Assembly (NCBI GenBank): GCA_021325235.1
Contig: JAJPHN010000031.1
Coordinates: forward strand, 62,001 to 126,000
DNA length: 64,000 bases
Direction: 5' to 3'
Source of the DNA: Terriglobia bacterium
Lineage (GTDB): Bacteria > Acidobacteriota > Terriglobia > Bryobacterales > Bryobacteraceae
Shown: in pieces, positions 46,322 through 50,179 of the stretch
Layout: each line of letters opens with the position of its first letter
Numbering within the stretch: the first letter of the stretch is position 1
Notes under the pieces: generated by a model
Database searches by the model: none
Seen by the model: the letters and a program-made list of their open reading frames with translations, nothing else
What the model was told of the DNA's origin: nothing
Translations under genes and position numbers: made by a program

Positions 46322-47218
46322 GTGAGGCAGGCACATTTTGTTCGCGCATTGAGCGCTCTGCTGTTAGCCGTGTCGCTAAGCGCAGCGCAGGCCGATCAGG
46401 TAGCGGGCGCGGAAAAAGAGAGGAACGCGCAGCAACAAAAGAAGGATCCAACGCAGAAAGAAAAAACGGAAAACGCACTGGCGAATTTGATGGGTGGCCC
46501 GAAGCTGGATCAGGCCGCAGTCGATCGCGGGCGAAAAATCTTCGTGCCGACCTGCGGATTTTGTCACGGCAACGATGCGCATGGCAAGAGCGGGCCCGAC
46601 CTGGTGCGATCGACTCTGGTGCTGCACGACAACAAAGGCGATACGATCGGTCCGGTGATTCACAACGGACGCCCCGACCGTGGCATGCCCGCCTTCCCGT
46701 CCTTGACAACAGATCAGATTGCAGATGTCTCGACGTTTCTGCATTCGCGAGCAGCCGATGTGACCAACCGCTTTGCTTACCAGATCGGCGACGTGGTGAC
46801 CGGCGACGCGCGCAAAGGAGCGGAATTCTTCAAGGGCGAGGGGCACTGCGCGAGCTGTCATTCGACCTCGGGCGATCTGGCGCATATCGCTACCAAGTAT
46901 CAGGCCGTGGAACTGCAGCGGCGTATGTTGTATCCAGCCCCGAATCTGATCGATATGTTTCTCGGGAAAGCGGTCAAGACGGCGCCGATCAAGGTGACCG
47001 TGCACACCGCATCGGGCGAGGAGGTGAGCGGAACGCTCGATCACATCGATGAATTCACCGTTTCGCTGCACGATGCTGCCGGCTGGTACCGTTCGTTCTC
47101 GCGCGAAACCGCAAAAGTGGACGTACAGGATCCCCGGGCCGCGCACGAGGCGCTGCTACCCAAGTACACAGACGATGACATGCACAATCTGCTTGCTTAC
47201 CTGGAGACCTTGAAATGA
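46322..47218 (+). CDS. Dihaem cytochrome c
   Basis: A 298-aa exported cytochrome with signal peptide (ALSALLLAVSLSAAQA), a Lys/Gln-rich linker and two haem-binding sites: CGFCH (~77-81) and CASCH (~176-180). A candidate axial Met lies in RGMPAFPSL. The region around VTVHTASGEEVSGTLDHIDE adds a small beta-domain between the second haem and the C-terminus. It begins with GTG 13 nt after the TIM-barrel gene and overlaps the PQQ gene by 4 nt. It is the likely electron acceptor of the PQQ dehydrogenase. Confidence 0.93.
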   Translation: MRQAHFVRALSALLLAVSLSAAQADQVAGAEKERNAQQQKKDPTQKEKTENALANLMGGPKLDQAAVDRGRKIFVPTCGFCHGNDAHGKSGPDLVRSTLVLHDNKGDTIGPVIHNGRPDRGMPAFPSLTTDQIADVSTFLHSRAADVTNRFAYQIGDVVTGDARKGAEFFKGEGHCASCHSTSGDLAHIATKYQAVELQRRMLYPAPNLIDMFLGKAVKTAPIKVTVHTASGEEVSGTLDHIDEFTVSLHDAAGWYRSFSRETAKVDVQDPRAAHEALLPKYTDDDMHNLLAYLETLK

Positions 47219-48789
47219 AGCGCGCTCTACTGGCATTGGTGCTGCTCGCTCCACTCGCGCAACATGCTCAGCAACTGCCGCCCGATGCGCTGCTCAAAGG
47301 CCAGAATGGCTCGTGGCCGACTTACAATGGCGATTACTCGGGGAAGCGCTTCAGCCCGCTGAAGCAGATCAATTCGTCGAATGTCGCTGCCTTATCGACC
47401 GCCTGGGTTTATCATGCGACGAACTACGGCGCCGGCGGATTCGGCGCAGTTATCAAATCGACCCCGCTCGAAGTCAATGGCGTGCTCTATTTCACGATGC
47501 CGGACAACGTCTGGGCGGTGGATGCGCGCAGTGGGCGCGAGATCTGGCATTTCAAATATCCGCCGAATGAGGGCGGACACATCGGCCAGCGAGGGGTAGC
47601 GATGTGGGGCGACTGGCTGTATTTCGAAACTCCGGATTGCAATTTGATTTCGCTCAATGCGAAAGATGGAAAAGAGCGCTGGCGCAAGCAGATTGCAGAC
47701 GTGAAGCTGGAGTACTTCTGCACGGTGTCCCCGCTCGTAGTGGGCAATCACATCGTTACCGGCGTGGGCGGCGATTCGCTGGATAATCCGGGATATCTGG
47801 AATCGCGTGATCCGGAGACGGGCGAAGTGCAGTGGCATTGGAATACGGAGCCGGCCAAAGGCGAGCCCGGTTCGGAGTCGTGGCCCAACGACGATGCGCG
47901 CAGTCATGGCGGCGGAATGACGTGGATGACGGGCACCTACGATCCCGAACTGCACCTGCTCTACTGGGGTACCGGCAATCCCAATCCGGTGCACGCGGGC
48001 GAGGCGCGTAAAGGCGACAATCTGTGGACCTGTTCCATCGTGGCGCTGAATGTCGATACGGGCAAAATGGCGTGGGGCTACCAGGTCTCGCCCCACGATA
48101 CGCACGATTGGGATGCGGTGCAGACGCCGATTTTGTTCGATGCCGAATTTCAGGGTCGTCCGCGCAAGCTGCTCGCACAGGCAAGCCGTAATGGTTTCTT
48201 CTTTGTCCTGGATCGCACCAATGGCGAACATCTGCTGACTGCTCCTTTCATCAAGAGCAACTGGAGCATGGGCATCAACGCGAAGGGACAGCCGATTCCC
48301 GATCCGAAGAAGGAGCCAGCGCGCAACGGCACGCTCGTTTCCCCGAGCTCGAACGGAGCCTCGAACTGGTTTGCGCCAACCTTCGATCCCGAGACGAGTT
48401 TGTTTTATGTCGTGGCTTCGCAAAGCTACAGCGTCTTTTATCTCACCGCGGAAGGCAAAGCGGAGGGCTTCGCGGGGCGCGACGATTTTCTCAATTTCCC
48501 TGGCACCATCAAAGCCATCGATTATCGCTCTGGCGAGATCAAGTGGACACACGATATCGGCTCGATGGGGCCGGGACTGCTGACCACGGCAGGCAACCTG
48601 CTGTTTACCGGAGACAGCTCCGCGCATTTCATCGCTCTCGATCCGGCCACCGGTAAGACGCTGTGGCACGCCGGTATCGGCGCAAATCAGACGAATGGCG
48701 CGATTACGTATGAGCTGGATGGGAAACAGTACGTGGTGGTCGGAGCCGGCGATAGTCTGGTGGCGTTTCGTCTGGACAAGAGCGAATAA
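47215..48789 (+). CDS. PQQ-dependent dehydrogenase
   Basis: A 524-aa periplasmic quinoprotein with signal peptide (LLALVLLAPLAQHAQQ) and the eight-bladed PQQ propeller. Motifs are WPTYNGDYSGKRFSPLKQI, VWAVDARSGREIWHF, YWGTGNPNPV (metal Asn) and PHDTHDWDAVQTP (catalytic Asp). The second Asp two residues later (D-W-D) is the position that marks lanthanide-using enzymes of the XoxF/PedH type; this is inference from motif alignment. There is no vicinal CC pair. The substrate is probably an alcohol or sugar. It is the last gene of the tetR-isomerase-cytochrome operon. Confidence 0.93.
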   Translation: MKRALLALVLLAPLAQHAQQLPPDALLKGQNGSWPTYNGDYSGKRFSPLKQINSSNVAALSTAWVYHATNYGAGGFGAVIKSTPLEVNGVLYFTMPDNVWAVDARSGREIWHFKYPPNEGGHIGQRGVAMWGDWLYFETPDCNLISLNAKDGKERWRKQIADVKLEYFCTVSPLVVGNHIVTGVGGDSLDNPGYLESRDPETGEVQWHWNTEPAKGEPGSESWPNDDARSHGGGMTWMTGTYDPELHLLYWGTGNPNPVHAGEARKGDNLWTCSIVALNVDTGKMAWGYQVSPHDTHDWDAVQTPILFDAEFQGRPRKLLAQASRNGFFFVLDRTNGEHLLTAPFIKSNWSMGINAKGQPIPDPKKEPARNGTLVSPSSNGASNWFAPTFDPETSLFYVVASQSYSVFYLTAEGKAEGFAGRDDFLNFPGTIKAIDYRSGEIKWTHDIGSMGPGLLTTAGNLLFTGDSSAHFIALDPATGKTLWHAGIGANQTNGAITYELDGKQYVVVGAGDSLVAFRLDKSE

Positions 48790-48798
48790 AAAAACAAC

Positions 48799-49782
48799 TC
48801 AGCTCTGCGGAAGCGCGAGCGATCCGTCAGTGGCGGCAGGCGTGCTGACCGGTTCGACAGGATAGCCGAGATCGCGCCACGCTTCGAATCCGCCCGCAAG
48901 AGGACGCACTCGATGGATTCCGGCGCGCTTGAGCTGCAGCGCCACACGGGCGCTGGTGGCCTCGTTCGGTCAAGTGCAATAAAGAATGATCTGCTGGCTC
49001 TCGGGTATTTCGTGCGAGCGCGAGGTAAGCTCTTCAGGCCGCAGAATTCGCGCGCCCGCAATTTTTAATCCCTCTCGCTCGATATCCGACGGGTGCCGAA
49101 GATCGATGACTGCCACTGCTTCGGCAGCTTCGAGTAAAGCGCGCGCTTCCTGCGGTGTGACGCGATTGATGCGCAACTTGCGGAAGAAGAGGCGCCGCTG
49201 AATGTACTTGAACCCGATGTACAGGGCGATAAGAGCGAGAAACAATACGCCAGCACGGCGGCCGAACAATCCCAGAGCTGCGATCAGTGCATCGATCTGG
49301 CGGTGAAAGATGCGGCCGAGCAGGAGATACGAGCTGATCCAGAGCGTGCATCCTGCGGCATCGGCGAGCAAGAAACGCGCATACGGCAACTTACTGACGC
49401 CGGCAAGGCAGGCTGAAGCGATCCCTAACCCGGGCACGAATTTTGCAAACAAGAATGCGCCCGCGCCGCGCCTGCCGAAAGCGGTTTCGGTCTTTCTCAC
49501 GCAGGTATCCGGCTCGAGGGCGAGTTTGCACAATAACTTCAGGACCGAGCGGCCCTTCCGGCGTCCGAGTTCATACCAAACTGTGTCGCCCAGGACGGCC
49601 GCGATCACAGCCGCAAGCAGCGACGAAACGAAATGATTCTGATGGTTGCCGATAGTTGCTCCCATCAGCAGAAACACTGGATCGGCGGGCAGCGGCAGTC
49701 CGGCGGACACCGCGAGCGTATAGACGAACAAGAACAGATACCCGTGGCGGAGGAGCAGATAGTGGAGCGAGAGCCAGTGCAT
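48799..49782 (-). CDS. DedA family protein fused to rhodanese domain, with in-frame UGA (candidate selenoprotein)
   Basis: The first ~200 residues form a DedA/SNARE-associated membrane domain (LAVSAGLPLPADPVFLLMG, FAKFVPGLGIASACLAGV). A C-terminal rhodanese domain follows (VAVIDLRHPSDIEREGL). The frame meets TGA at 48970-48972 (residue 271), right after QQIILYCT, where homologues as I recall them have Cys. It then continues through PNEATSARVALQLKRAG and VRPLAGGFEAWRDLGYPVE to a normal TGA at 48799-48801. A perfect hairpin lies 21 nt (to its loop) after the UGA. If the UGA is read, the protein has 327 aa; if not, it is a truncated 270-aa product. ATG 49782 precedes the DedA opening HWLSLHYLLLRHGY. 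Confidence 0.75.
48937..48955 (-). other. SECIS-like hairpin downstream of an in-frame UGA
   Basis: On the transcript CAGCGCC, loop CGUGU, GGCGCUG: a perfect 7-bp stem with a 5-nt loop whose second base is G. The apical loop starts 21 nt after the UGA. As I recall the bacterial SECIS consensus (upper stem of 4-16 bp, loop of 3-14 nt with G in the first two positions, 16-37 nt from the UGA), all terms are met. The stretch is also coding, as bacterial SECIS elements are. Confidence 0.5.
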
Positions 49783-49870
49783 CTGAACCACAGGATACAG
49801 GCGCGCTCGCCGCTTCTCGCAAAATCGTGAGAAGCTCTTTGTGAAACGGCAGCGACAAAGGAAAACTTGG

Positions 49871-50179
49871 ATGGCCGATATTAAGAGAGCACGAATGGCG
49901 CTCGTGCAATGGATTCTGGAAGGCCCCGGACACGCATTGGCCACAGAACGAGGCGCCGCTTTTGCAAACGCCGGACTGGCAGGACCGCTAGCAAGTCTGG
50001 TCGATAAAGTTGCGAAGTGTTCCTACAAGATCACGGACGAAGACATAGCGGGTGCAAAGGCAGCGGGCCGGAGCGAAGATCAGCTCTTCGAGCTGATCGT
50101 GTGTGCGGCGACCGGCCAAGCCGCGCGGCAGTATGACACGGCGCTCGCTGCGCTCGATGCCGCAGCCGATCAGGAGTAA
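49871..50179 (+). CDS. AhpD/CMD-like small protein
   Basis: A ~102-aa helical protein. The segment KCSYKITDEDIAGAKAAGRS and EDQLFELIVCAATGQAARQY resemble the carboxymuconolactone decarboxylase/AhpD fold (SEDQLFELVV... type), but it lacks the CxxC pair. ATG 49871 has AAGGAAA ~10 nt upstream. It is followed after 2 nt by a full CxxC-bearing CMD protein, so the two are co-expressed and may form a heteromer. It diverges from the DedA gene. Confidence 0.75.
   Translation: MADIKRARMALVQWILEGPGHALATERGAAFANAGLAGPLASLVDKVAKCSYKITDEDIAGAKAAGRSEDQLFELIVCAATGQAARQYDTALAALDAAADQE

Follow-up and report, generated by a model that had tools for sequence, protein, structure and literature searches.

The window analysed here, a 64,000-nucleotide stretch of a Terriglobia bacterium contig, carries on its minus strand a gene in which a DedA-type membrane domain precedes a rhodanese domain, and within the rhodanese domain lies an in-frame TGA (Table 1). 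Does this codon end a truncated protein, or is it read as selenocysteine (Sec) within one longer selenoprotein? A first-pass annotation had inferred Sec in the rhodanese active-site loop, with a TGC-to-TGA nonsense mutation as the competing explanation. The selenocysteine genes of the assembly, the TGA and Cys codons of homologues and a hairpin maintained across the family all support decoding as Sec, which we regard as almost certain; no protein data exist, and insertion of Sec in the cell is inferred. That the product is a single selenoprotein combining decoded UGA, DedA domain and rhodanese domain is highly probable, a judgement that covers identity and decoding and does not extend to the redox relay proposed below.

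An in-frame UGA in a rhodanese active-site loop

The frame opens with ATG and, as the first-pass annotation had described, passes the TGA and continues for 56 residues to a normal stop. Both Pfam domains exceeded their gathering scores (PF09335, 52.2 bits against a cut-off of 33.9; PF00581, 41.8 bits against 22.2). An AlphaFold2 model built from a 69-row alignment (A1: the window and 68 others, with 6 of 74 candidates omitted as near-copies) had a mean pLDDT of 91.1 and a pTM of 0.83, and its tail adopts a rhodanese fold, with 3tp9 as the top PDB match (1.7 Å across 104 columns). Alignment to 3tp9 and 5ve3 placed Cys269 on the loop Cys of both, which we take to be the catalytic one, and made Sec271 an additional residue two places further along; the loop exceeds that of either structure by two residues. 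The site is thus a C-x-U motif (C269-T-U271), and its loop, C-T-U-P-N-E-A-T-S, deviates from the C-R-x-G-x-R type usual in sulfurtransferase rhodaneses. PADLOC gave no match. Two convergent plus-strand neighbours, at 47215-48789 and 46322-47218 of the window, resemble by eye a PQQ-dependent dehydrogenase and a cytochrome c.

Table 1 Features of the DedA-rhodanese gene, with positions in the window
Feature	Positions	Strand	Description	Basis
Whole reading frame	48799..49782	minus	Opens at ATG 49782; 327 residues, Sec at 271	DedA/VTT and rhodanese domains
VTT/DedA membrane domain	49312..49692	minus	Residues 31-157	PF09335, E 1.1e-13
Conserved CX8C	49501..49530	minus	Cys85 and Cys94, around LEPD	110/110 DedA genes, 0/20 DedA-only paralogues
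Rhodanese domain	48874..49158	minus	Residues 209-303	PF00581, E 1.6e-10; fold match to 3tp9 and others
Cys269	48976..48978	minus		Aligned with loop Cys of solved rhodaneses
In-frame UGA (Sec271)	48970..48972	minus	In Y-C-T-U-P-N-E-A-T-S-A	Sequence; TGA in 21/27 homologous loci
SECIS-like hairpin	48937..48955	minus	7-bp stem, 5-nt loop CGUGU	Folding of window and 145-gene comparison
Terminal stop TGA	48799..48801	minus		Sequence

Homologues were sought in 60 genomes including the window's own, all of which gave some match; 30 loci were examined and 27 reach the site (L042 stops short of it, and the codon of L031, L033 and L035 was read directly from the sequence). Aligning these loci at the site, a check suggested at first pass, gave TGA in 21, the window included, Cys (TGC or TGT) in 5 and Gly (GGC) in 1. 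The annotation had named homologues without any Cys or Sec at this position as grounds for rejection, and this condition was not fulfilled. The accompanying expectation that homologues have Cys here holds for five loci; the Cys typical of rhodaneses corresponds to Cys269 and not to the Sec.

A pattern of the form C-x-TGN-P-N-E-[AT]... matched 19 times across 396 genomes of the phylum, with 18 TGA, one TGT, no TGC and no TGG, and the reversed pattern, our control, gave none in the same 396 genomes. The 18 TGA matches include DedA, antiporter and short forms, with the window among them; the single TGT match has no rhodanese context and was judged a chance match. A TGA-only version of the pattern, run over genome contigs, found at least 117 stretches, among which L097, L133 and L176 are chance matches. 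Because TGA and PNE were built into this pattern, it says nothing about the ratio of Sec to Cys, and those of its own residues that are invariant in A1 do not count as evidence. Among the matches listed, at least 110 unique non-chance loci comprise 76 DedA fusions, 10 long antiporter-type fusions, 18 short or other forms and 6 that are cut at the 5' end. By record title, and again among the matches listed, the DedA form occurs in Acidobacteriota (49), Rokubacteria (10), Pseudomonadota (8), Myxococcota (4), Methylomirabilota (2), Nitrospirota (1), SAR324 (1) and an unassigned deltaproteobacterium (1), spanning at least six named phyla and SAR324; in the same set the non-DedA forms add Thermodesulfobacteriota and Chloroflexota. 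Relatives are found in many bacteria, from soil and other habitats.

Independent genomes from several phyla share this TGA, which can be neither a sequencing error nor a fresh nonsense mutation, so that a pseudogene, or a DedA protein with half a rhodanese ending at the UGA, is virtually excluded: a standard ORF does stop there, but conservation of the codon in 21 of 27 homologous loci and in at least 110 unique loci (76 of them DedA fusions, among the matches listed) already refutes this reading, and purifying selection past the UGA argues against it as well. Gene callers that have no selenoprotein model for this family would stop at the UGA, and at least 110 unique genes could therefore be annotated without their active site (their annotation is unchecked).

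Five loci from the rhodanese matches, L059-L062 and L064, were rejected as other proteins, most of them MoeB-like by eye, in which the TGA (TAG in L064) is the normal gene end. Three DedA-rhodanese paralogues, L050, L052 and L053 (genomes G011, G001 and G005), have neither Cys nor Sec at the site, which reads YSSSG[GE]D, and a second DedA-rhodanese paralogue in the same lineage (L047, L048, L049, L051 and L054) has two Cys, in YCTC[VIH]R[EQ]ATS. The membrane and rhodanese parts of another DedA-rhodanese gene (L045, G036:C763) lie in different frames. A DedA-rhodanese gene from a record titled Nevskia soli, a gammaproteobacterium (L106), groups with Bryobacterales, pointing to a misnamed bin or a transfer.

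Machinery, hairpin and constraint downstream of the UGA

Absence of selA, selB or selC, which the first-pass annotation had named as grounds for rejecting Sec, was not found: all three, and selD, are present in the assembly (5.03 Mb, 60 contigs, 95.7% complete, 4.8% estimated contamination). selA was matched at E 9.8e-121, and tRNA-Sec (selC) was identified by both Rfam and ARAGORN, with anticodon tca. selB is present as one full copy and one partial copy at the edge of a small contig, and two selD genes scored over the cut-off. A formate dehydrogenase whose RIUHSSTV stretch contains an in-frame UGA lies on the same contig as selA; it and the sel genes are all on contigs other than that of the window. 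The second copies of selB (selB loci C22:67787 and C36:150-1004) and selD (selD loci C8:123094 and C3:9955) are either true duplicates or part of the 4.8% contamination.

A selA match over the cut-off was found in 60 of 60 relatives, with the best match weak (E >1e-12) in G004, G032, G033 and G052, where it may represent another PLP enzyme. One of these genomes, G004 (79% complete), has UGA genes of both fusion kinds and only the weak selA match. Strong selA matches occur in all five genomes that carry the Cys form and in the one with the Gly form (split across two contigs in G022), so loss of Sec decoding does not account for the Cys form.

The perfect 7-bp hairpin noted at first pass, CAGCGCC-CGUGU-GGCGCUG, is present past the UGA, with 21 nt from UGA to loop and G as the second loop base. 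In isolation, the window's 23-nt hairpin stretch folds at -12.5 kcal/mol (z -2.5 against dinucleotide shuffles). Folds of 40 and 41 nt contain the hairpin and are barely better than shuffles (z -0.8), and when 51 nt of context are included a different fold has the lowest energy; the window is one of 8 genes among 145 that do not pass the SECIS-like test described next. A search of Rfam with 48600-49900 at a lax threshold gave no match. Given the alternative 51-nt fold and the z of -0.8, the window's single hairpin is weak evidence; the strong evidence is the comparison of 145 genes.

This comparison used 145 unique UGA genes: the 21 homologous loci, 110 from the scan that found at least 117 stretches and 14 from the 396-genome scan. 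The chance matches L097, L133, L176 and L203 were dropped before counting, and 8 of the remaining 159 loci were removed as duplicates, too short or containing N, leaving 151. We folded the 51 nt past each UGA, compared the result with synonymous recodings of the same stretch, and scored a hairpin as SECIS-like if its loop started 16-37 nt from the UGA and measured 3-14 nt, with at least three stem pairs and a G in the first two loop bases; these loop limits are general background on SECIS elements. A SECIS-like hairpin was predicted in 137 of 145 genes, against 53.8 expected (DedA 99/106, antiporter 11/11, short 16/17, others 11/11). In control windows the counts were 89 against 78.5 expected (the next 51 nt) and 62 against 56.7 (the 51 nt upstream), and the six Cys or Gly homologues had it no more often than chance (2 of 6 against 2.7 expected). 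Mean folding energy was little informative (mean z -0.46, against -0.33 and -0.14 in the control windows).

The position of the element is also fixed, with the loop at exactly nt 21-25 in 117 of 145 genes and G at nt 22 in all 145. Pairing nt 14-20 with nt 26-32 as a fixed stem, 7 pairs are possible in 79 genes, 6 in 51 and 5 in 15; the mean of 6.44 pairs compares with 6.13 ± 0.04 when partners are re-dealt (maximum of 500 deals, 6.25), and the two outer pairs are loose, formed in 93 and 118 of the 145. Two pairs join third codon positions on both sides, and the search pattern constrains amino acids, not these bases. Pair 20-26 is formed in 144 of 145 genes (CG 140, TA 2, AT 1, GC 1) and pair 17-29 in all 145 (CG 124, TG 10, TA 10, GC 1); in the six Cys or Gly genes they are formed in 2 and 4, respectively. 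All 128 loop Arg codons are CGT or CGG, whereas these two account for 1,656 of 3,873 CGN codons in the same genes (site included). The UGA genes thus maintain the hairpin through codon choice. As related sequences are not independent, we attach no p-value to this comparison.

Purifying selection acts on the residues past the UGA. Along 38 codons counted from the UGA, L016 shows 23 synonymous and 3 non-synonymous differences to the window, against an expectation of about 0.79 non-synonymous without constraint, and 13 further comparisons gave 13-21 synonymous and 4-10 non-synonymous differences. Four residues past the UGA and outside the search pattern, G288, G297, G298 and W302, are invariant in 69 of 69 rows of A1. 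A quick tree of 117 rows placed eight Cys rows (five orthologues and three paralogues) among Sec rows, with at least three changes forced by the starred branches. This tree has no bootstrap, its rooting is unsure, no branch separates the outgroup from the remaining rows, and the branch leading to the Cys paralogues is long; the tree omits L094, which has an assembly gap over CX8C, and L047, which failed the motif filter.

A cysteine pair, lost arginines and possible functions

The membrane part has features of its own. A CX8C pair is present in all 110 unique DedA genes whose site codes for Sec or Cys and in which the pair is not lost to an assembly gap; by class, it occurs in 105 of 106 UGA genes, the exception being the gap in L094, and in 5 of 5 Cys genes. 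The sole Gly gene, L040, lacks the second Cys. Two of the three paralogues without Cys or Sec at the site (L050 and L052) retain Cys85 and Cys94, so the Cys pair and the Cys-Sec site are not strictly tied. In 20 DedA-only paralogues, a sample of those found in relatives, neither Cys occurs, and all 20 have Arg at the place of R136 of E. coli YqjA.

That Arg is missing from the fusions. In the 69 DedA-rhodaneses of A1, the R136 column contains no Arg (S 26, N 24, G 7, Q 7, T 3, A 1, gap 1) and the R130 column, also numbered by YqjA, has Lys in 67 and Arg in none; the window has K114 and G120 at these two places. The D51 column has Asp in only 2 of 69, the window being one, and the E39 column has Glu or Asp in 66, with Val in the window. 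The available text of PMC10127716 describes two Arg of the second re-entrant helix as essential in DedA flippases, and notes that DedA-rhodanese fusions exist whose relation to lipid is unclear.

These observations lead us to a model in which the decoding and identity of the protein are highly probable and the mechanism is inferred. tRNA-Sec and SelB would decode the UGA as Sec, guided by the hairpin starting 14 nt past it, to give a DedA-type membrane domain joined to a cytosolic rhodanese domain with a Cys269-Thr-Sec271 site. The sidedness is inferred by the positive-inside rule from the many Arg and Lys residues around 74-105 and 192-207, which would put Cys85, Cys94 and the rhodanese on the cytosolic side. 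Cys269 and Sec271 could form a fast selenol-thiol redox or persulfide-handling pair, acting on Cys85 and Cys94 at the membrane surface and so driving or gating a DedA part that lacks the Arg needed by undecaprenyl-phosphate flippases. Both partner and substrate in this scheme are inferred. We hold the relay from the Cys-Sec site to the Cys85/Cys94 pair, the likeliest mechanism, only tentatively, with rather more doubt than confidence. Weighing against it are the Cys pair retained in L050 and L052, the window's Asp at the D51 place, the C-x-C of one unfused antiporter and the lack of a conserved gene neighbourhood (both described below).

The same Sec-rhodanese is also joined to a second, long transporter-like domain, at 12 loci of which 11 are distinct (L208 repeats L187). 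These Na+/H+-exchanger-type antiporter fusions (L084, L115, L120, L136, L139, L155, L164, L170, L179, L187, L191 and L208) have the site C-A-U-P-N-E, but C-T-U in L170. The domain assignment comes from L120, the only one scanned (PF00999 Na_H_Exchanger, 135 bits, and PF00581), with which the others align. All 12 have a C-x-C motif, LC[DQ]CF, in the membrane part, compared with one of four unfused antiporters (three from relatives and E. coli CvrA). That one, L237 of genome G048, has C-T-C where the fusions have C-x-C, and no rhodanese motif by two simple patterns. L056-L058 are further CxU fusions of the Sec-rhodanese to such an antiporter, and genome G024 has a DedA form with Cys and an antiporter form with Sec. 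From the two fusions one could picture the Cys-x-Sec rhodanese as a portable redox input module placed on at least two unrelated transporter folds, DedA and the Na+/H+-exchanger-type antiporter, with their own Cys pairs (CX8C and C-x-C) as targets, making up a class of selenol-controlled membrane transporters; this generalization is speculative and we think it rather unlikely to hold.

Other functions can be fitted to the same selenoprotein. Rhodaneses carry persulfide sulfur, and the DedA part might move sulfur or selenium species (selenite or something persulfide-like) that the Cys-Sec rhodanese receives or reduces in the cytosol. The missing R136 would suit such a role, as would a 2005 title on a DedA protein and selenite resistance cited in the available text of PMC10127716, and a review, PMC11422209, has DedA participating in selenite uptake. 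In crude ORF calls around 88 loci, however, there was no conserved partner, the commonest family appearing at only 8 of 88 and none being recognised as a sulfur or selenium gene (no family search was made), and the antiporter fusions suggest a module that is not bound to one substrate. We consider chalcogen handling unlikely, while keeping it in contention. Retention of undecaprenyl-phosphate or other lipid flipping by the DedA part, with the Sec-rhodanese merely regulating or protecting it, seems improbable: 68 of 69 members match the UptA equivalog model, the acidic residue of the E39 column is widely kept and the window retains Asp at the D51 place, but the window's 50.5 bits fall far below the model's cut-off of 250, its E39 place holds Val, and in the family the D51 equivalent is nearly always gone, R130 is replaced by Lys and R136 is never Arg, both Arg being those reported as essential (PMC10127716). 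More doubtful still is a selenium sensor, in which ribosomes stop at the UGA when selenium is low and a second, intended product is a DedA protein that lacks the rhodanese half. The UGA does sit past the entire membrane domain, and the truncated form could for that reason be stable; the five Cys homologues, however, can yield only the full protein, and the residues past the UGA are strongly conserved.

Under the preferred reading, a Cys-Sec rhodanese on a DedA domain, selenium use in Acidobacteriota and Rokubacteria becomes directly testable, the unexplained DedA-rhodanese fusions gain a chemical handle, and the Sec and Cys forms offer a natural series for testing why selenium is retained.

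Relation to known selenoproteins and DedA proteins

Sec rhodaneses as such are already known. A 2026 table of 119 prokaryotic selenoprotein families lists rhodanese forms 1-5, and the part of it available names no DedA or antiporter Sec fusion (PMC13188914 Table 1). The word "DedA" is absent from the main texts of PMC13188914, PMC1794560, PMC5029168, PMC2398784, PMC1088965 and PMC12013277. Titles and abstract openings from literature on selenoproteins together with rhodanese, DedA, antiporter, Acidobacteriota or Rokubacteria do not describe the fusion; an earlier mention remains possible, as supplements and most subscription papers lay outside this scope.

The closest named family is NF041203 (rhodanese_LYCAU in NCBIfam, "rhodanese-related (seleno)protein"; "rhodanese-like form 3", CxU, in PMC13188914 Table 1), which shares the rhodanese fold and the C-x-U motif and differs in having a 126-position model without a membrane domain. 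All 69 rows of A1 match this model at E 0.001. The window scores 81 bits, below the 115-bit cut-off, as do a stand-alone acidobacterial protein (L091, 97.5 bits) and the antiporter fusion L120 (71.7 bits), and a stand-alone Desulfosarcina protein in L089 exceeds it (172 bits). The tail of the window's protein is kin to this known Sec-rhodanese.

TsoB (NF045694, rhodanese/DsbD fusion-like) also combines, by its name, a Sec rhodanese with a membrane redox protein; it differs in its UxxxxU motif with two Sec, as given in the available part of PMC13188914, and the window matches its model at only 14.4 bits against a cut-off of 805. The same partial source names further selenoproteins that are membrane transporters, YeeE/YedE, a cation ATPase and the SO_0444 efflux transporter, which belong to other families with other motifs (GUxSG, UxxC and UxC) and for which no rhodanese is named. 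Among proteins not known for selenium, P. aeruginosa PA1209 has the same domain order as the window, and no word starting "selen" appears in the accessible portion of its paper (PMC12893004). In the rhodanese fusions of COG0586, selenium enters the text seen of PMC10127716 only through the cited selenite title. The undecaprenyl-phosphate flippases UptA and YqjA/YghB share the VTT domain; relative to these, the DedA-rhodaneses lack the R136 equivalent, lack the D51 equivalent in 67 of 69 and carry CX8C. We consider it very likely that the gene represents a new Sec fusion class of the known Sec-rhodanese module, and what sets it apart from the systems above is the DedA form across at least six phyla and SAR324, the loss of the flippase Arg together with a Cys pair, and the antiporter fusions with their C-x-C.
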